DNA of 38,352 nucleotides from a virus: IMG/VR virus record IMGVR_UViG_3300047300_000245, positions 1 to 38,352 of that record, one strand, 5' to 3'. The notes below the pieces were generated by a model. The model saw nothing but the letters and a program-made list of their open reading frames with translations, did not search any database and was not told the DNA's origin. The position numbers and the translations under genes were made by a program. Below, piece by piece: positions 13,601-30,663 of the stretch. The first letter of the stretch is position 1. Each line of letters starts with the position of its first letter.

Positions 13601-13740
13601 GTATAGAACTTAGTGTAATACGAGGACTATCCTTTGGTATTGAATATCTTAATGGTGAAGACGCAGGAGATGATGACGTAGGAGTCTATGTTGTAATAGA
13701 CTTAGGCTTCCTACGATTATTGTTTACTACGTTTAAGTAA
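13597..13740 (+). CDS. Small protein after reductase, 47 aa
   Basis: A 47-aa frame starting in ATGA overlap with the reductase stop and preceded by a strong AGGAGG (13582-13587). It has an acidic middle (EDAGDDDVG) and a hydrophobic C-terminal half. It is the last + strand gene, and its end overlaps the convergent lysin-like gene by 8 nt. Confidence 0.55.
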   Translation: MSIELSVIRGLSFGIEYLNGEDAGDDDVGVYVVIDLGFLRLLFTTFK

Positions 13741-14161
13741 TCTGAATAACGACAGGACTAGTAGAGTTTTCTATTAGAGGCATTAAAGAACTCATAGCAA
13801 CTTTACTAGATCCTATCCAATCTGAATGTCCATCCCAAGTCATACCGACCAAGATACAGCCCTCAGTGTTTGAAGAGTTGTTGCCTGTGTGAATTCGTAC
13901 ACCCGTAAACCCATCAACATCCATGAGTTGAGGTAGCTTAGATTGAAATCTGTTGGAGAAGGTAATAGCAACATTATAAACTCCTCTAGGTATTGCTGTT
14001 TCATTCTGAACCTTCCATTGACTTACTGGTTGTCCGTCTACTTCTCTAAACTTATCTTCTAAAGTATAGCAAATAGGTGCTAAACTAAATCCACTGTCTT
14101 CATATAACTGACCTACTGTGAATGTTTCACCAAAGTGTATACGTTTTAGGAATAATTTCAT
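13733..14161 (-). CDS. DUF5675-like protein, candidate lysin
   Basis: A 142-aa protein matching the DUF5675 pattern: an N-terminal strand region, YTLEDKFR, IPRGVYNV, GVRIHTGN and TEGCILVG. The IH-GN...GC arrangement recalls the His and Cys of L,D-transpeptidase-type folds (H113 near C124 by count of this frame, approximate). It is the last gene of the late arm, directly after the holin-like gene, and no other peptidoglycan enzyme was recognised, so a lysis role is the best inference. Activity is not established. Confidence 0.65.
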   Translation of the reverse strand: MKLFLKRIHFGETFTVGQLYEDSGFSLAPICYTLEDKFREVDGQPVSQWKVQNETAIPRGVYNVAITFSNRFQSKLPQLMDVDGFTGVRIHTGNNSSNTEGCILVGMTWDGHSDWIGSSKVAMSSLMPLIENSTSPVVIQIT

Positions 14162-23668: not shown

Positions 23669-24013
23669 TTATGATCCATTCTGATAAGATGTGTTTTGAT
23701 GAATTTCTACAGTGAAAATAACTGAGAATGTTGAACCTGCTGCTGGTGTTACTGTTAAGTAATCTCCTTCATCCATTACCATCCGTCCGTCAGAGAACTG
23801 TAAAAACTCTCCTGCACCTAGAGATTTAGCACCTACAATAGTTACAGTAGATCCATAACTAACATCATGCCAACCTGCTGATACAGAGTTAGTTGATCCG
23901 CCGCCATTAGCAATAAATAATAATGTAGCAATAGCTTTGCAACCTTTAGGAACAGTATAAACTGTATTGGCTGTACCTGCTGTCAGGTTCTTACCAACTG
24001 TAAGTTCTCTCAC
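23669..24013 (-). CDS. Small virion-type beta protein, GTG start
   Basis: A 114-aa beta-rich protein starting at GTG inside the previous stop (TAGTG), with GGAG 6 nt upstream. Alternating strands and Gly/Ser turns (TVPKGCKAIATLLFIANGGGS) resemble phage head or fibre decoration proteins such as the product of 29353-29679. The exact role is unknown. Confidence 0.55.
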   Translation of the reverse strand: MRELTVGKNLTAGTANTVYTVPKGCKAIATLLFIANGGGSTNSVSAGWHDVSYGSTVTIVGAKSLGAGEFLQFSDGRMVMDEGDYLTVTPAAGSTFSVIFTVEIHQNTSYQNGS

Positions 24014-24225
24014 TATTTACTCCAATGACTTGTTATAAAGGTTATTAAACCACCAACACCTGATGCAATTACCATGCCCATCCAGAAACCACCCTTAGAT
24101 TTGTTGGCTAATTCAAGAAGTTCTTCCATTCCAGATTCTAGCTTATCAATCTTTTTCTCCATAGCTTCTACCTGAGCTACAAGCTTACCGTACTTATATA
24201 GGTCTACTCCGTTCTCTGTAGTCAT
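24013..24225 (-). CDS. XhlA-like coiled-coil membrane protein
   Basis: A 70-aa protein: a coiled coil (about residues 15-43, VEAMEKKIDKLESGMEELLE) followed by one transmembrane helix (about 47-66). This is the layout of XhlA/hemolysin-type phage proteins that accompany holins. It may assist lysis or anchor something to the membrane. It lies away from the main lysis pair at 13.7-14.5 kb. Confidence 0.55.
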   Translation of the reverse strand: MTTENGVDLYKYGKLVAQVEAMEKKIDKLESGMEELLELANKSKGGFWMGMVIASGVGGLITFITSHWSK

Positions 24226-24227
24226 GC

Positions 24228-24386
24228 TTATTCATCCGATGGTAATGGTGTGTTGCCTTCTTCTACCCACTTTAGGTATGCTTGGTAATCTGTGTTGGCT
24301 GGGTCAAATGGGATGAAGGCATTGTCTACTAATCTTTTAACAGAAGAAGGTTCTTTTGTTGGGCTAATTTTTATTAATTTATACAT
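24228..24386 (-). CDS. Small fibre-partner protein A1
   Basis: A 52-aa protein. Its C-terminal half FIPFDPANTDYQAYLKWVEEGNTPLP closely matches the 55-aa product of 25441-25608, and each directly follows a related fibre-tip gene. Small genes in this position often encode fibre assembly chaperones, so that role is inferred. Confidence 0.6.
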   Translation of the reverse strand: MYKLIKISPTKEPSSVKRLVDNAFIPFDPANTDYQAYLKWVEEGNTPLPSDE

Positions 24387-24388
24387 AA

Positions 24389-25444
24389 TTAAAGCTCCGC
24401 ATTAGCAGAAAAATTATAATAGTGAAGTGTATTTGTTTGCGCAGCTCCAGACTGACCAATAAAGGCAACATTTTGTGTAGCTGCTGCTACACCATAAGAA
24501 CCACCAGCTCCGTTTGGGTATCCACTTTGAGTAATTTTCTCAATAGTTGGTATTGCTCGTTTTACTACTCTAAACCTTAATGGATTTATATATCTCCAAC
24601 TTGAATAATAATTACCAGCTTCAGGTATTTCTCCACTTTCAACTACTTCGTAGTACCTCTCACATAGCTGCAATTCCATTCCATAAGGTCTGTAATCAAA
24701 GCTAGTAGCAGTAGAGCCTTTTTCTAGTTGAACTCCTGTGATGTAGAAGGTAGCTCCGTTTGTGCCGACTACTGATGTTGCTCCTGTTGCTGAACGATAA
24801 TCGGCAGCAGCCCATGAACCAGCAGTTCCATTATAAGAAGAACCAGTACCCATATTAAAATAAAGTTCAATGGCATTTCCATTTGTTGTATTCCATGAAC
24901 CTGCTGTTGCACCGCTAATTACTATTGATTTTTGTTCCCATGTATTAGCAGCTGAAATTGTATAACTAAAAGGAAATGAATAAGACGAAGTTCCACTTTT
25001 TACAGAACCACCAAATGTACCAGTTAGGCTTGAACGAACCCAAAACGATAAAACAACTGATGATGCAGATGATGTTCCCCAAGAAAAATCAGCAGAGCTA
25101 TATCCTTCTATTTTTTGACGAATAGAAATCACATCAGTAGATGCAACTGAATAAGCTCCAGTTGAAGTAATTCCAAGATAATTGGAGAAGCCATTAGGCG
25201 GTGTTACTGAACCAGCATTTTGTTGGACTGTAAATCTTGATGCACCTGAATTATTTTGTACATCCCATCTATCTAGTGTGTAAACACCACTTGTTCCATT
25301 AACACTAGCACCAGCATTTCTCTGGTCAATCATCATTGCACCATTGATGATGCGGTTCTTAAAGCCAAAGCCACTAGCACCAGTAGCTTGAGAAGTACCG
25401 TCAGCAAAGACTAAACCAGTTGTTCCATTAATTGCTACACTCAT
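24389..25444 (-). CDS. Fibre-tip protein 1
   Basis: A 351-aa beta-rich protein. Conserved elements are FKNRIINGAMMIDQRNAGAS (about 28-48) and ITGVQLEKGSTATSFDYRPY (about 232-252), shared with the product of 25605-26555. The middle and last 90 residues differ, as in receptor-binding tips. It starts in ATGA overlap with the small partner gene 25441-25608. Confidence 0.7.
   Translation of the reverse strand: MSVAINGTTGLVFADGTSQATGASGFGFKNRIINGAMMIDQRNAGASVNGTSGVYTLDRWDVQNNSGASRFTVQQNAGSVTPPNGFSNYLGITSTGAYSVASTDVISIRQKIEGYSSADFSWGTSSASSVVLSFWVRSSLTGTFGGSVKSGTSSYSFPFSYTISAANTWEQKSIVISGATAGSWNTTNGNAIELYFNMGTGSSYNGTAGSWAAADYRSATGATSVVGTNGATFYITGVQLEKGSTATSFDYRPYGMELQLCERYYEVVESGEIPEAGNYYSSWRYINPLRFRVVKRAIPTIEKITQSGYPNGAGGSYGVAAATQNVAFIGQSGAAQTNTLHYYNFSANAEL
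24696..24739. repeat. 44-bp exact repeat, copy 1
   Basis: A 44-bp block identical to 25957-26000, in the same orientation and in the same frame. It encodes the conserved VQLEKGSTATSFD segment of the two fibre-tip genes. The genes are otherwise divergent, so the repeat may mark recent exchange or duplication. Confidence 0.8.
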
Positions 25445-25608
25445 TGTTGCTCCTCTGCTGGTAAAGGTTCATTACCTTCACTTAACCATTTAAGATATGC
25501 TTGATAGTCTGTGTTGTCTGGATTAAAGGGGATACAAAGACCATCATTCCTCTGAACTGATGCAGGAGTTCCCATAAACCCATTTACTAATTTATATGTA
25601 ATCATCAT
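25441..25608 (-). CDS. Small fibre-partner protein A2
   Basis: A 55-aa protein related to 24228-24386 through IPFNPDNTDYQAYLKWLSEGNEPLP. It starts in ATGA overlap with fibre-tip gene 2; the second ATG at 25605 is an alternative. It is likely a chaperone or accessory for the fibre encoded upstream. Confidence 0.6.
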   Translation of the reverse strand: MMITYKLVNGFMGTPASVQRNDGLCIPFNPDNTDYQAYLKWLSEGNEPLPAEEQQ

Positions 25609-26555
25609 AGCTCCGCACTAAAATCAACATAACTACCTGTACCATCTATAAGAGCAATAGCATGACCTTGTGTCATTCCAGTAGTACCGATCTGTGTATA
25701 AACACCTTTTGTACCAAAGGCTACAGTACCAGTAGCTGATACACCATAGTTTGTATTATTTCCTTGAAGTAAAAAACTACCATTAGAACTATAGGAAACT
25801 GAAGGAGCTGTTCTTTTTTCTACTTGAAAACCAAGGAATCCTCTAAACACAGTAGCTTGTGTAGCCATGCCTGAGCAGAATACATTATTACCAGTATTGG
25901 AAATCTTCTCATAGTATCTTTGACACAAAGCTAATTCAGTACCATAAGGGCGATAGTCAAAGCTAGTAGCAGTAGAGCCTTTTTCTAGTTGAACTCCTGT
26001 TATACGAATAGTTTTGCTTGCAGCACTACCAAATTGCATATCCAGCAAAACACCGTTTGAAGCTCCTGCTGGTAGAGTGAATGTTTTACTAAAGTAAGTA
26101 TATTGTCCGCCAGTCAAAGTTATAGACTGACCAGTCAAATATGTTGCACCACTTCCCCAGTTATCTGAACTACCTGAAGCTGGAGTTGCAAGATACACCG
26201 TTCCTGTAGCCGAACCAACGGTATCTATATAAACATAGCCTGATAATGTCACTGTTTGTGAAGCCAAATCTTGACAATTTAATGCTTCAATCCGTTGTGC
26301 AAATGAAACAAGTGTTACACCAGTTCCGCAAACAAGTTGAGCAGCATAACCAAATCCAGATAGTGATGCTGCCACTCTTTGTATAGTGCCAGTTCCACCA
26401 GCAATAGATGGATACCAACGGTCTAAAGTATAAGCACCACTAATTGAAACACTAGCACCAGCATTCCTTTGGTCAATAACCATGTTGCCATTGATGATCC
26501 TATTCTTAAACTGTCCTTGGTTTGCTGATTGAGCAATACCTTGAGCTTTACTCAT
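25605..26555 (-). CDS. Fibre-tip protein 2
   Basis: A 316-aa beta-rich paralogue of the 24389-25444 product. It shares FKNRIINGNMVIDQRNAGAS (about 16-36) and ITGVQLEKGSTATSFDYRPY, plus the 44-bp identical DNA block. The centre and C-terminal 100 residues are unrelated in sequence. It is probably a receptor-binding tip or alternative fibre. It starts in TAATG overlap. Confidence 0.7.
   Translation of the reverse strand: MSKAQGIAQSANQGQFKNRIINGNMVIDQRNAGASVSISGAYTLDRWYPSIAGGTGTIQRVAASLSGFGYAAQLVCGTGVTLVSFAQRIEALNCQDLASQTVTLSGYVYIDTVGSATGTVYLATPASGSSDNWGSGATYLTGQSITLTGGQYTYFSKTFTLPAGASNGVLLDMQFGSAASKTIRITGVQLEKGSTATSFDYRPYGTELALCQRYYEKISNTGNNVFCSGMATQATVFRGFLGFQVEKRTAPSVSYSSNGSFLLQGNNTNYGVSATGTVAFGTKGVYTQIGTTGMTQGHAIALIDGTGSYVDFSAEL
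25957..26000. repeat. 44-bp exact repeat, copy 2
   Basis: Second copy of the block at 24696-24739, about 1.26 kb away in direct orientation. Recombination between copies would delete or fuse the fibre-tip genes. Confidence 0.8.
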
Positions 26556-26722
26556 TATTGAACTCCATCTAATTGTTCTTGTGTTGGTCTAGGCAATGTA
26601 GGGTGTTCCCACTTAGCAATGTAGTCGCCTTTACCGTCTGAGTCATTCTGTAAAGTGATGACAGTCATAAAGTCATTAGGCTGTAACTCTGGATACAAAG
26701 TAATAATTTTATTGTATAGCAT
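26555..26722 (-). CDS. Small fibre-partner protein B
   Basis: A 55-aa protein (begins MLYNKIITLY, ends PTLPRPTQEQLDGVQ). The final pattern resembles XkdW-type small phage tail proteins. It starts in a one-base overlap with the fibre gene upstream and ends in TAATG overlap with fibre-tip gene 2. It is unlike partner proteins A1 and A2. Confidence 0.55.
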   Translation of the reverse strand: MLYNKIITLYPELQPNDFMTVITLQNDSDGKGDYIAKWEHPTLPRPTQEQLDGVQ

Positions 26723-27264
26723 TATGCTGCCCTCACTAAGAAGCCTTGAAAGTGTGTTCCGCCTTTATTAATACTTGGGCTTGCTCCATTAGAGTAAGCA
26801 TATAGCTCAATATAATCAGTTGAACCATTAAAATACATAAGATTGCTAAATGCTAAGTGTGTTCCATTTGTACTGCTACTAAAGTTTACATATACTTCTG
26901 GTGACATTCCGCTACCATTTTTATATAACTGTGCATACATATCAGAAGCACTACCAAGAACATAACAAACAACATTAATTTGATAATATCCAGCAGTTGT
27001 TGGTAAAAACTTTGAATTTGTTGTATCAAAATAATTTGAAGTATCAAATTCTTCTGCATTAAATGTTACTTTTGTCCAAGTATTTTGTGATATTGTTTGA
27101 TTTGCAGATTTATAAGCACTAAAAACTGGACTTGTTGTTGGTAGCTGTGATGTTAAAGCAACAGTACCAGTCTGTGCAGGTAAAGTTAAAGTATAGTTAC
27201 TAGCTGTTGTTGGTTCTTGTAGAGTAACTGAACCACCGCTAGAAGAATTTAATTTAACTGCCAT
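26722..27264 (-). CDS. Fibre-tip protein 3, C1q-like end
   Basis: A 180-aa protein. A short N-terminal repeat region (about 1-45, VTLQEPTTASNYTLTLP) is followed by a jelly-roll-like region of about 130 residues (FSAYKSANQTISQNTWTKV, YYQINVVCYV) similar to C1q/TNF-type trimer heads in phage fibres. It is probably a receptor-binding module. Confidence 0.65.
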   Translation of the reverse strand: MAVKLNSSSGGSVTLQEPTTASNYTLTLPAQTGTVALTSQLPTTSPVFSAYKSANQTISQNTWTKVTFNAEEFDTSNYFDTTNSKFLPTTAGYYQINVVCYVLGSASDMYAQLYKNGSGMSPEVYVNFSSSTNGTHLAFSNLMYFNGSTDYIELYAYSNGASPSINKGGTHFQGFLVRAA

Positions 27265-27265
27265 A

Positions 27266-27538
27266 TTATTCTCCCTTTGGATATTTAGCTTTTACTGCAT
27301 TACAAGCATCAATATAAGCCTGTATCTGTGCTTGGTCACCTTTAACAACACCGTCTAAGTAGTCTCTAAAGTCTGGGTATTCTGTTGCTCTTTGTTGTTT
27401 GTATTCGTTAGCTTGAACTAATGCTTCTGCTTGAGCTTTGTCGTATGAAACTACATTGCCATTAACATCGTAGGCAACATCACCACGAATAGTAACAATG
27501 GATTGATTAAGTTGATAAATAGCATCATGTAACTTCAT
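27266..27538 (-). CDS. Small fibre-partner protein C, XkdW-like
   Basis: A 90-aa protein. The C-terminal part YPDFRDYLDGVVKGDQAQI...ACNAVKAKYPKGE is the pattern of XkdW-type phage proteins. It starts in ATGA overlap with fibre gene 4. It is likely an assembly or accessory protein. Confidence 0.6.
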   Translation of the reverse strand: MKLHDAIYQLNQSIVTIRGDVAYDVNGNVVSYDKAQAEALVQANEYKQQRATEYPDFRDYLDGVVKGDQAQIQAYIDACNAVKAKYPKGE

Positions 27539-28032
27539 GCTGCAATCTCCATAAGAATAATAGACCCAACAGTTCCAGACTCAAAAGCTCTAATGCTTTG
27601 TCCGCTACCACTTCGCATATATGTAGAATATGTTGTAGAAGATGTTGTTGAAGGGGAATCTAAATAACTTAATGCAACTTGAAAAGAATAAGGATTATTC
27701 ACATTGCCATACCATTGCAACATTCCATAAGATGAGTGACCTAGATTAGTAGACCCTCTATAAATTGTATGCCAACTTTGCTGATATGTTGTTGTGTCTA
27801 GTGCTGTGTAAGAAGCAACAATTAATATTTTACTTGAAGAACTTGATGGTGTTATTGATGCAGATAAACCTGTTGTTACAAAAGATGTAGAAGTAGTTGC
27901 TGTTTGAGTTGAATAAGTAGAATTAACAACCTGAATAACACTCCCACTAGGAGCATTAGCATCAGGCAATACCCCAGTTAAAGGTTGAGTTCCTAAGTTG
28001 ATACCATTTGTACCGCTAATTGTAAAAGCCAT
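27535..28032 (-). CDS. Fibre-tip protein 4
   Basis: A 165-aa beta-rich, Ser/Thr-rich protein. It has an N-terminal NGINLGTQPLTGVLPDANAPSG region and a central SSSSSKILIVASYTALDTT jelly-roll-like strand pattern common in phage fibre ends. It starts one base into the previous stop. Confidence 0.6.
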   Translation of the reverse strand: MAFTISGTNGINLGTQPLTGVLPDANAPSGSVIQVVNSTYSTQTATTSTSFVTTGLSASITPSSSSSKILIVASYTALDTTTYQQSWHTIYRGSTNLGHSSYGMLQWYGNVNNPYSFQVALSYLDSPSTTSSTTYSTYMRSGSGQSIRAFESGTVGSIILMEIAA

Positions 28033-28475
28033 TATACAATCACCCAGTTAGAGCCTGTTGGGACTGTCACAGTCACACCAGAGTTAATAGTAATAGTTCC
28101 TGCTGACATTGCATTACATCCATTAGTAATGGTGTGGTCAGCAGTGACTGTCTGTCCGTTCTCAAAGAATGGTCGACCTGTAATAGTCAATGGAGCAGTC
28201 ATTGTGTCACCAGTTTTAGCCACAGCATTGGCTGTACTAAATGTTCCATAAGCGACAATCACTACTTCATCATTCAATGCACAAGGACTATTTAAGACAA
28301 CAGAAGTACCATTAGAAGCAGTATAGTCTGTTGCTACTAACTTAACACCATTGATATAGACATCCAAGAACCCTACTGTGTAACCAGCAGAGAATGTTGT
28401 TTGTCCAGCAATAGCAATTACTTCATAAGTAGTTCTTGTTGCTGATACTATGGGTTCATTACCGATATAGCTCAT
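28032..28475 (-). CDS. Fibre structural protein, MSYxG type
   Basis: A 147-aa protein. The start MSYIGNEPIV is echoed by the neighbour MSYLGTKPQT, a common fibre N-terminus that may dock to a shared partner. The region GYTVGFLDVYINGVKLVATDY is a recurrent phage fibre module. The C-terminus is beta-helical in character. ATGA overlap with the S74 gene. Confidence 0.65.
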   Translation of the reverse strand: MSYIGNEPIVSATRTTYEVIAIAGQTTFSAGYTVGFLDVYINGVKLVATDYTASNGTSVVLNSPCALNDEVVIVAYGTFSTANAVAKTGDTMTAPLTITGRPFFENGQTVTADHTITNGCNAMSAGTITINSGVTVTVPTGSNWVIV

Positions 28476-29353
28476 TTAGACTCCAATGCTGTTAGTCTTG
28501 CTTCTAATGAAGTAATGATGGCTTGTTGTTCTTGGATTGCAGCAGTTAGTGTAGCTACTAGGAATGATGTATCAATACCTTGGTAAACAGGGTTTCCATC
28601 AGCATCTACTGCATCTTTTTCACCAGTAACACAGTCAGGAACTACTGCTTGTAGTTCGTGAGCAATAAAGCCTTGTGATGCTTCACCTGTTGATTTCCAT
28701 GTATAAGTAACAGGTTTTAAAGCTGATACTGTAGCCAAAGCACCTGTCATTGGTGCAATGTTTTCTTTTAGGCGATAGTCTGAAGATGTTGCATAAGTTG
28801 TTGAAGAAGCATTGATTAAAATTTCACCAACACCGCCGCCTGATGAATTGAAGAAAGCACAAGCAGAACCTGTCGTTGATGATGACCTAAAAGCTATTGA
28901 ATATTTTGATGCAGTTGCTGGTATGTGCATACAAGCAGTTCCAGTTGTGCTTGTAGTATTTAGCAACAAGTTACCAGAGCTATCTATTCTCATTCTCTCT
29001 GTGTTGTTAGTTCGAAGTGACATTACATTACTACCACCAGCATTAATAACACTTACTTCAGAACCACCACCGTTTACAAGCCATAAAGCTGCTTCATAAG
29101 CACTTGTTACCTGTGCTTTAACATTGACTGCTCCAGTTCTTTTAACTTCTAAATCAGCAGCAGGTGTACTAGTACCAATACCAACATTACCAGAGCTATC
29201 CCAAGTAGGTGCTCCAGTAGATAGTTTAGCAGGTGTTACAGCACTTGCAGCAATATCAGCAGTACCTACAGCACCATCAGCAATACTTTCTGTAGTGACA
29301 ATACCTGATGCTAACTGAGTAGCTGTTTGTGGTTTAGTTCCTAGATAGCTCAT
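28472..29353 (-). CDS. Fibre protein with S74 self-cleaving chaperone
   Basis: A 293-aa protein. The N-terminal shaft (1-130) has SSGNVGIGTSTP and SSGNLLLNTTS repeats. The C-terminal peptidase S74-type intramolecular chaperone begins near SSDYRLKENI (S191, K196 as the likely dyad) and runs to a final coiled coil (IITSLEARLTALESK). Such domains trimerise the shaft and then cut themselves off. So the mature fibre would end near residue 190. Confidence 0.8.
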   Translation of the reverse strand: MSYLGTKPQTATQLASGIVTTESIADGAVGTADIAASAVTPAKLSTGAPTWDSSGNVGIGTSTPAADLEVKRTGAVNVKAQVTSAYEAALWLVNGGGSEVSVINAGGSNVMSLRTNNTERMRIDSSGNLLLNTTSTTGTACMHIPATASKYSIAFRSSSTTGSACAFFNSSGGGVGEILINASSTTYATSSDYRLKENIAPMTGALATVSALKPVTYTWKSTGEASQGFIAHELQAVVPDCVTGEKDAVDADGNPVYQGIDTSFLVATLTAAIQEQQAIITSLEARLTALESK

Positions 29354-29682: not shown

Positions 29683-30663
29683 TTATCCTAATGCGATTGC
29701 TAAAGCCACTGCAGTACCTGCTGGGTCAGCACTGATTGTAGCCCAAGAAGTGTTAGTACCGTCTGTTGTTAAATATTTACCTGCATTACCTGTTTGACTA
29801 GGTGTATAACTAGCAGCTAATGTTGCTGAGTTGGCTGCAGCAGTAGCAGAGTTAGCAGCATTGGTTGCACTAGTGGCTGCATTGCTTGCTGATGTAGAAG
29901 CTGCTGATGCACTGTTACTAGCATTCGTAGCACTAGTAGATGCAGCACTTGCTGAGTTACTTGCACTTGTTGCAGAACTTGCTGCATTTGTTGCTGATGT
30001 ACTTGCAGAACTTGCTGATCCGGCTGCAGCAGTAGCTGAAGATGCAGCATTAGTAGCTTGAGTAGTTGCTATTCCTGCTTGTGTTGTAGCAGTCGTTGCA
30101 CTAGTAGATGCAATCGATGCACTGCTTGCCGCGTTAGTTGCAGAAGTAGACGCACTGGATGCAGAACTAGCTGCAGCAGTCTCTGAAGCACTCGCTGCCG
30201 ATGCTGAGGAAGCAGCAGCAGTAGCAGAATTGCTTGCGTTGGTTGCTGAAGTATTCGCGGCAGTCGCTGAATTAGCGGCATTAGTCGCACTAGTAGAAGC
30301 ACTAGAAGCTGAAGAACTAGCAGCAGAAGCAGATGAAGCTGCATTAGTAGCAGATGTACTAGCAGACGAAGCTGAACTAGCAGCGTTGGTAGCCGAAGTA
30401 GAAGCAGCACTCGCAGAGGAACTTGCAGCACTAGCCGCAGTTTCAGCATTTGTTTCAGCAGTTTCAGCATTTGTCTCCGCAGTCTCAGCGTTAGTCTTTG
30501 CAGTTTCTGCAGCTACCTTAGCAGCTACAGCCGCAACTCTTGCAGCCTCTGCAGCATCAGCGTCAGCTTGAACTTCTACAGCAAGTGTTCTAATTAAGGA
30601 AGCTTCACTAGCTGCGTCAGCTACAGCATCACCTGCTCCACCTGATCCTCTATAGATTGCCAT
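29683..30663 (-). CDS. Ala/Ser-rich fibre shaft protein
   Basis: A 326-aa protein. Residues about 35-285 are repeats of the type SASSASTSATNAAS, made of Ala, Ser, Thr and Asn, consistent with a trimeric helical shaft. The C-terminus has TGNAGKYLTTDGTNTSWATI, a module seen at fibre ends. This low-complexity DNA also opens long spurious frames on the other strand. It starts right after the small gene at 30664 behind GAGGAAG. Confidence 0.7.
   Translation of the reverse strand: MAIYRGSGGAGDAVADAASEASLIRTLAVEVQADADAAEAARVAAVAAKVAAETAKTNAETAETNAETAETNAETAASAASSSASAASTSATNAASSASSASTSATNAASSASAASSSASSASTSATNAANSATAANTSATNASNSATAAASSASAASASETAAASSASSASTSATNAASSASIASTSATTATTQAGIATTQATNAASSATAAAGSASSASTSATNAASSATSASNSASAASTSATNASNSASAASTSASNAATSATNAANSATAAANSATLAASYTPSQTGNAGKYLTTDGTNTSWATISADPAGTAVALAIALG

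Follow-up and report, generated by a model that had tools for sequence, protein, structure and literature searches.

A tail-fibre cassette with four fibre and partner gene pairs

The window analysed here is one virus record of 38,352 bases, and its tail-fibre cassette lies on the minus strand from 30,663 to 24,013. In order of transcription the cassette opens with a fibre stem of 326 aa, a 108-aa gene, an S74 fibre of 293 aa and a 147-aa fibre, continues with F165 and p90, C1q180 and XkdW55, F316 and pA55, and F351 and pA52, and closes with a small gene judged holin-like by eye (Table 1). An initial annotation had proposed four fibre-type genes between 24,228 and 28,032 on the minus strand, each with a short gene directly 3′ of it, and all eight open reading frames (ORFs) lie where it placed them. 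The cassette exceeds the extent given there by two further upstream fibre-type genes, the S74 fibre and F147. Throughout the run, adjacent genes share 1 or 4 nt or stand 1–2 nt apart, and the run therefore looks translationally coupled; the pA55 gene has a 4-nt overlap with the stop of F316 and another with the start of F351. F316 is made up of a carbohydrate-binding-like body followed by a variable tip. C1q180 sits at the edge of the C1q family, scoring 23.2 bits against the PF00386 cut-off of 23.7 with the profile covered from 2 to 127 of 127.

Table 1. Features of the tail-fibre cassette, listed in the order of transcription.
Feature	Position in window	Strand	Evidence
rpt326, Ala/Ser/Thr-rich fibre stem	29683..30663	−	phrog_3279 tail fiber E 6e-15
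S74 fibre, C-terminal S74 self-chaperone, without small partner	28472..29353	−	PF13884 E 1.3e-13
F147, fibre-type, without small partner	28032..28475	−	phrog_34255/5342 C-terminal matches
F165, fibre-type, 165 aa, C-terminus -LMEIAA	27535..28032	−	phrog_6942 tail fiber E 1.4e-7
p90 partner, 90 aa, N-domain and C-domain	27266..27538	−	phrog_9114/2687
C1q180, C1q-like fibre-type, 180 aa, C-terminus -LVRAA	26722..27264	−	PF00386 E 8.4e-5
XkdW55 partner, 55 aa, single-domain XkdW	26555..26722	−	PF09636 E 4.7e-9
F316, fibre-type, 316 aa, C-terminus -SAEL	25605..26555	−	phrog_4492 tail fiber E 1.7e-41
Conserved DNA hinge of F316 (ITGVQLEKGSTATSFDYRPYG..LC.RYY)	25909..26003	−	Repeat D1, 14-mer sharing
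Variable tip of F316, conserved -EL at end	25608..25908	−	14-mer comparison, mirror-tree parse
pA55 partner, 55 aa	25441..25608	−	phrog_20370 E 1.4e-9, alignment with pA52
F351, fibre-type, 351 aa, C-terminus -NAEL	24389..25444	−	phrog_4492 E 2.6e-53, AF2 model
Conserved DNA hinge of F351	24648..24742	−	Repeat D1
Variable tip of F351, residues 265-351, conserved -EL at end	24392..24652	−	14-mer comparison, AF2 model
pA52 partner, 52 aa, three strands and one helix	24228..24386	−	AF2 model; phrog_20370 E 2.6e-12
Small gene ending cassette in many relatives, holin-like by eye	24013..24225	−	TM stretch by eye only

The partners fall into three families

Two of the partners, pA52 and pA55, are 58% identical and both belong to phrog_20370/34019, and the fibres in front of them are 40% identical over residues 15–332 (F316 versus F351), confirming the earlier view that two related partners go with two related fibres. 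The remaining two had been called XkdW-like. For the 55-aa partner at 26555 this is correct: it scored 36.3 bits against PF09636, above the gathering score of 24.6, and is a member of the XkdW family. Its family profile also matched PBSX XkdW (2hg7, E 2.8e-4), and XkdW55 itself weakly matched the N-terminal part of the tail fiber assembly family phrog_8746 (E 0.0023). The p90 partner instead belongs to phrog_9114 and phrog_2687; its N-domain is 51% identical to the N-terminal half of the tail assembly chaperone of phage Melnitz (tblastn), and its C-domain carries the pattern 'EYP..DYLDG..KGDQAQ....KAKYPK'. Because Pfam and PHROGs place only XkdW55 in XkdW, and a Pfam profile search with PF09636 matched none of the three other window partners, the XkdW label is right for one partner only.

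We considered whether pA, XkdW and p90 form one superfamily and rejected this on hhalign comparisons between their profiles, which gave probabilities of 5.1, 0.6 and 0.2%. A profile search found no match of any window partner to Caudo_TAP, the lambda-Mu Tfa family (PF02413), or to Phage_tail_APC (PF16778). The latter was sub-threshold in relatives of pA and, at 33.2 bits, above its gathering score in the partner 3′ of the HMO-2011 C1q gene. Neither a DUF4376 domain of the type found in Alteromonas phage V22 gp27 nor a matching N-domain was found in the window partners, and V22 gp27 itself (195 aa, with DUF4376) had no match to the pA, XkdW or p90 profiles; the idea that one of the three is its N-domain was dropped on this ground. 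When genome contigs were searched with the pA profile, nine loci were returned, eight with a pA-like gene and one with a transposase-like protein.

Fusion proteins in other phages place these small domains in context. In Melnitz, the N-half of p90 is followed by Phage_tail_APC (PF16778, E 2.3e-14, 53.4 bits) in a gene annotated as tail assembly chaperone, which lies 3′ of a fibre ending in -MEIAV. Despite the lack of profile similarity noted above, gp61 of HTVC115P joins XkdW (E 1.2e-13) and the p90 C-domain (E 6.4e-12) in one chain. In gp42 of the Pseudomonas putida phage Luutsna-3, encoded directly 3′ of a 681-aa fibre ending in -DAEL, pA is followed by a C-half with matches (E 1.5e-4 to 5e-4) to PHROGs labelled 'tail fiber assembly', and gp51 of cyanophage S-2L, annotated as tail fiber assembly-like, has pA at its N-terminus. 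The same N-domains are thus fused elsewhere to helical or assembly C-domains, so the window partners of 52 and 55 aa represent stand-alone N-domains, and p90 has both domains. On sequence grounds, these fusions support a link between the partners and tail-fibre assembly factors. The initial annotation had read the partners as chaperones or accessories, a reading that is strengthened by the fusions.

Predicted structures of a fibre and its partner

The AF2 model of pA52 consists of three strands and one helix (pLDDT 86.7). Foldseek found no significant fold match for it in the PDB (best E 0.48), and chemokine-like matches (Z 4.1 or less) were judged to reflect a common arrangement. The model of F351 (pLDDT 82.8) comprises a confident jelly roll at about residues 40–245, a hinge helix at 254–262 and a tip at 265–351, which is beta-rich and of lower confidence than the jelly roll. 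The top PDB match of the body was CBM4-2 (4bj0, E 8.8e-6, TM by target 0.75), and the closest viral models to F351 were fibres of cyanophages and other phages. The modelled body has a CBM4-like jelly-roll fold, which by itself is no proof of sugar binding.

Each partner family follows one class of fibre

Five IMG/VR scans supplied the relatives: one used the tail gene that lies 3′ of the cassette, chosen as a neutral anchor, and the others used pA, XkdW, p90 and F351. ORFs were listed mechanically and the sets thinned to 90% identity before counting. These relatives come from contigs of uncultured viruses and, having been retrieved with window proteins, are not a random sample; the set that was counted had also served to train the family models. 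In 181 of 184 non-redundant cases, the gene immediately 5′ of pA encoded an F351/F316-family fibre. The gene directly 5′ of XkdW was a C1q-type fibre for 65 of 66 non-redundant partners among the matches listed, the XkdW family being larger than the set used. Behind F165-class fibres, the p90 family comes next. Counted by fibre, 219 of the 224 distinct F-type (-EL) fibres had pA within 330 nt in any frame, leaving few -EL fibres with no recognisable pA. At the neutral-anchor loci, pA accompanied 15 of 17 F-type fibres and XkdW accompanied 7 of 8 C1q fibres. Among 16 phage records chosen by their fibre alone, 12 had pA next to it by profile, S-SBP1 and IME-SM1 had a diverged pA-like ORF after the fibre by eye, and S-N03 and Kolga had no pA there. 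The pairing of fibre and partner is far above chance.

Fibres ending in an S74 domain, such as the one that serves as a control inside the same cassette, had a pA, XkdW or p90 partner in none of 37 cases, as expected if they bring a chaperone of their own. C-terminal F147 fibres had no partner in any of the five scans. The gene 3′ of the partner was highly varied and the gene 5′ of the partner was nearly always of one fibre class, indicating that the partner belongs to the preceding fibre. A position directly 3′ of the fibre gene is a mark of the chaperone class, and all window partners occupy it.

The N-domain of the partner predicts the fibre end

The N-domain of pA occurred with a fibre ending in -EL in 184 of 185 cases, that of XkdW with one ending in -R[AGS]A in 90 of 94 among the matches listed, and that of p90 with one ending in -E[IV]x in all 45. 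Where other N-domains are joined to the p90 C-domain, the fibre ended in -E[IV]x in only 15 of 67 cases (Fisher 1.3e-18 versus the p90 N-domain). These other N-domains form clusters, each of which, judged by eye, mostly accompanies a single type of fibre end: a 'HYKD..N.L' cluster is found with -ELR, for instance, and one resembling XkdW with -LYGIS. Judged by these counts, the N-domain of a partner is predictive of the last residues of its fibre. Because the fibre end also marks the C-terminal domain family, this matching holds for classes rather than for a direct reading of the last residues.

The end is strongly constrained in the F-type fibres, which finish in Glu-Leu in 221 of 224 cases despite the hypervariable tip before it. 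We considered whether -EL is a mere effect of the partner's ribosome-binding site. A GGAG-like site often lies inside the last codons of the fibre, and GAG is favoured as the Glu codon after NCG; some of the conservation thus also serves that site. GAA is nevertheless used in 49 cases (22%) and all six Leu codons occur, and the explanation was rejected as sufficient, the end being kept at the protein level.

A stronger version of the rule is possible, although we incline slightly against it: the N-domain might directly recognise the last residues of the fibre (-EL, -R[AGS]A and -E[IV]x, plus -ELR and -LYGIS as judged by eye) as a client tag, swapped tips still being folded by one constant chaperone of about 50 residues, with C-domains optional and shared. 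If so, several different tips could coexist in one small genome.

The tip varies and the partner is kept

Between F-class fibres of different loci, the share of common 14-mers was 0.047 in the hinge (QLEKGSTATSFDYRPYG..RYY), 0.00009 in the tip, where 1% of pairs shared any versus 0.5% in the control, and 0.015 in the fibre end together with the pA gene. The tip of the -EL class, about 90 residues long, is unrelated between phages, and even loci with an identical 45-nt hinge carry unrelated tips. The tip thus sits between two conserved DNA stretches, where recombination could exchange it, the partner staying in place. In the C1q/XkdW and F165/p90 classes too, the partner gene was more conserved than the fibre end.

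A mirror-tree comparison of partner and tip in the -EL class gave no convincing co-divergence. The first pass, on the last 70 fibre residues, yielded r 0.21; with a cleaner, motif-based parse the Mantel r fell to 0.06, with 46 of 1000 permutations as high, and the comparison was not used as support. Given a conserved partner with no clear co-divergence, the partner seems generic for its fibre class, and the -EL-class partner is most likely not matched to tip specificity. The initial suggestion that each tip brings its own chaperone survives in that fibre and partner travel as units; the family of the partner, however, follows the C-terminal class of the fibre and not the tip.

The hinges of the two paralogues in the window are 81% identical in DNA (F316 versus F351, repeat D1), and over about 40 nt (24703–24742 versus 25964–26003) they are nearly identical, while the fibre proteins are only about 40% identical. 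This fits gene conversion or a strong constraint at the DNA level. Codon choice in the hinge is also unusually uniform, with GGC for Gly.

Pair content and order change among relatives

The initial annotation had suggested a modular cassette, and had named one fixed structure in every relative, with no turnover, as the finding that would speak against it. Relatives with the same tail protein had from none to four recognised pairs, in varying order; because pairs come, go and change order, no such fixity was found. Loci L053 and L056 carry C1q with XkdW, F with pA and F165 with p90; L051 carries C1q with XkdW, F with pA and again C1q with XkdW; and L025 and L049 have a long stem and a single F with pA. 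The stem, 326 aa in the window, reaches about 1,100 aa in relatives, where some long stems at least end in a C-terminal S74 domain of their own.

A probable set of minimal fibre-assembly chaperones

Several known systems resemble these pairs. The short Pam3 fibre gp24 has a distal TNF-like domain, and its chaperone, gp25, is encoded downstream; the variable N-domain of gp25 grips distal gp24 and its helical C-domain mediates trimerisation (PMC9608196). Gp25 has both domains in 162 aa, whereas the pA and XkdW partners of the window appear to be N-domain only, at 52–55 aa. In Alteromonas phages V22 (gp26/gp27) and A5 (gp8/gp9), a fibre and its directly downstream chaperone are swapped as a host-recognition module, and modules of this type are exchanged among unrelated phages (PMC7289586, PMC10579305). 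For each of these phages a single fibre-chaperone pair is described, whereas the window has four. XkdW55 is a true PF09636 member 3′ of a fibre-type gene, as a counterpart of PBSX XkdW, but it corresponds only to the N-terminal part of that protein, which has 110 residues in 2hg7. Point mutations in XkdW alter plaque form in Bacillus phages (PMC8190038). Finally, C1q, carbohydrate-binding, tail-fibre and XkdW genes are among the hypervariable genes of marine metaviromic islands, and in the parts of that account consulted neither fibre/partner pairing nor a matching rule was found (PMC3909814).

Taken together, we think it probable that the locus is a cassette of interchangeable tip modules in which each partner acts as a minimal fibre-assembly chaperone, matched to its fibre class by an N-domain of about 50 residues. 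The partner would be translated directly after its fibre, its start overlapping or abutting the fibre stop. As the fibre folds and trimerises, the N-domain could bind the conserved strand at the C-terminus of every subunit and hold the distal ends while three subunits fold and align, as Pam3 gp25 does on gp24 (PMC9608196). Afterwards the partner may leave or briefly cap the tip, as proposed for Alteromonas phages (PMC10579305). The C-domain, found in p90 and not in the 52- and 55-aa forms, would be an optional element for oligomerisation. Tips of the -EL class could be exchanged between the conserved hinge and the constant partner gene with no new chaperone needed.

Alternatively, the partners might remain part of the virion, capping its fibres distally or serving as adhesins, and join in receptor binding, like gp38 of T2 and S16 or Tfa of Mu, which have the same gene position; some fibre chaperones do remain attached (PMC7289586, PMC10579305). 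A conserved partner beside an unconserved tip in the -EL class is, however, the opposite of the pattern expected from an adhesin that carries specificity, and Pam3 gp25 is absent from virions (PMC9608196), which makes this role unlikely. Usable virion proteomics of relatives were not found in the literature. Considerably less probable is a function as adaptors that would connect the individually encoded tips with the shared stem rpt326. Since each tip has its own gene and the N-termini are short and varied, some attachment device is called for, and partner and tip are co-inherited; yet pA also follows long fibres that would need no adaptor, such as that of Luutsna-3, and the match is to the fibre C-terminus and not to its N-terminus. 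Least likely of all, the small ORFs could be unrelated accessory genes (lysis, regulation) kept by operon structure, since they adjoin a holin-like gene in many relatives and most are annotated as hypothetical, but the freely varying 3′ neighbours beside a nearly invariant 5′ fibre class, the strict matching of N-domain and fibre end and the fusions to assembly domains all argue against it.

As minimal assembly chaperones, the partners would provide a simple rule for finding tips and pairing them with assembly factors in uncultured freshwater and marine phages, where the partner genes are mostly called hypothetical. The arrangement suggests why recombinant tips may fail if expressed alone, and it distinguishes a constant part, the partner, from an exchanged part, the tip flanked by two conserved DNA arms. 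Chaperones that are encoded downstream of a fibre and exchanged along with it are already known, as is the combination of a variable N-domain with a helical C-domain (PMC7289586, PMC10579305, PMC9608196). A limited search of the open-access literature returned no description of the rule linking N-domain and fibre end, of single-domain partners of 52–55 aa or of a constant partner beside an exchanged tip. Such a search gives weak evidence of novelty, and the single-domain partners, the matching rule and the four-pair cassette are apparently new here.

Other elements near the tip modules

Endonuclease-like ORFs of the HNH and GIY-YIG types lie between tip modules in 61 of 389 loci (69 proteins, 50 of which adjoin a tip or partner), among them L009:1353–1871, L011:1886–2404, L132, L220, L019 and L025. 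In L009 and L011 the HNH ORF starts with a copy of the fibre leader, and in L132 and L220 it ends with a copy of the C-terminal part of the partner. These ORFs may move or convert tip modules.

L051 and L056 lie on one contig (IMGVR_UViG_3300027734_000108, 49,405 b) with two anchor tail genes and two different cassettes, which is either two phages concatenated during assembly or a genuine double locus. An ORF of the window at 13733–14161, starting MKLFLKRIHFGETFTVGQLYE, has a by-eye look-alike at L066:8845–9270, within the tail/lysis region of L066, which suggests that this ORF moves between places in these genomes. A small ORF of the type 'LTVEQVNLILAALGQ..' occupies the partner position after an -EL-type fibre (L265:4546–5625) and also occurs before the g70 gene in L023:8339–8500; it is possibly a fourth partner family.
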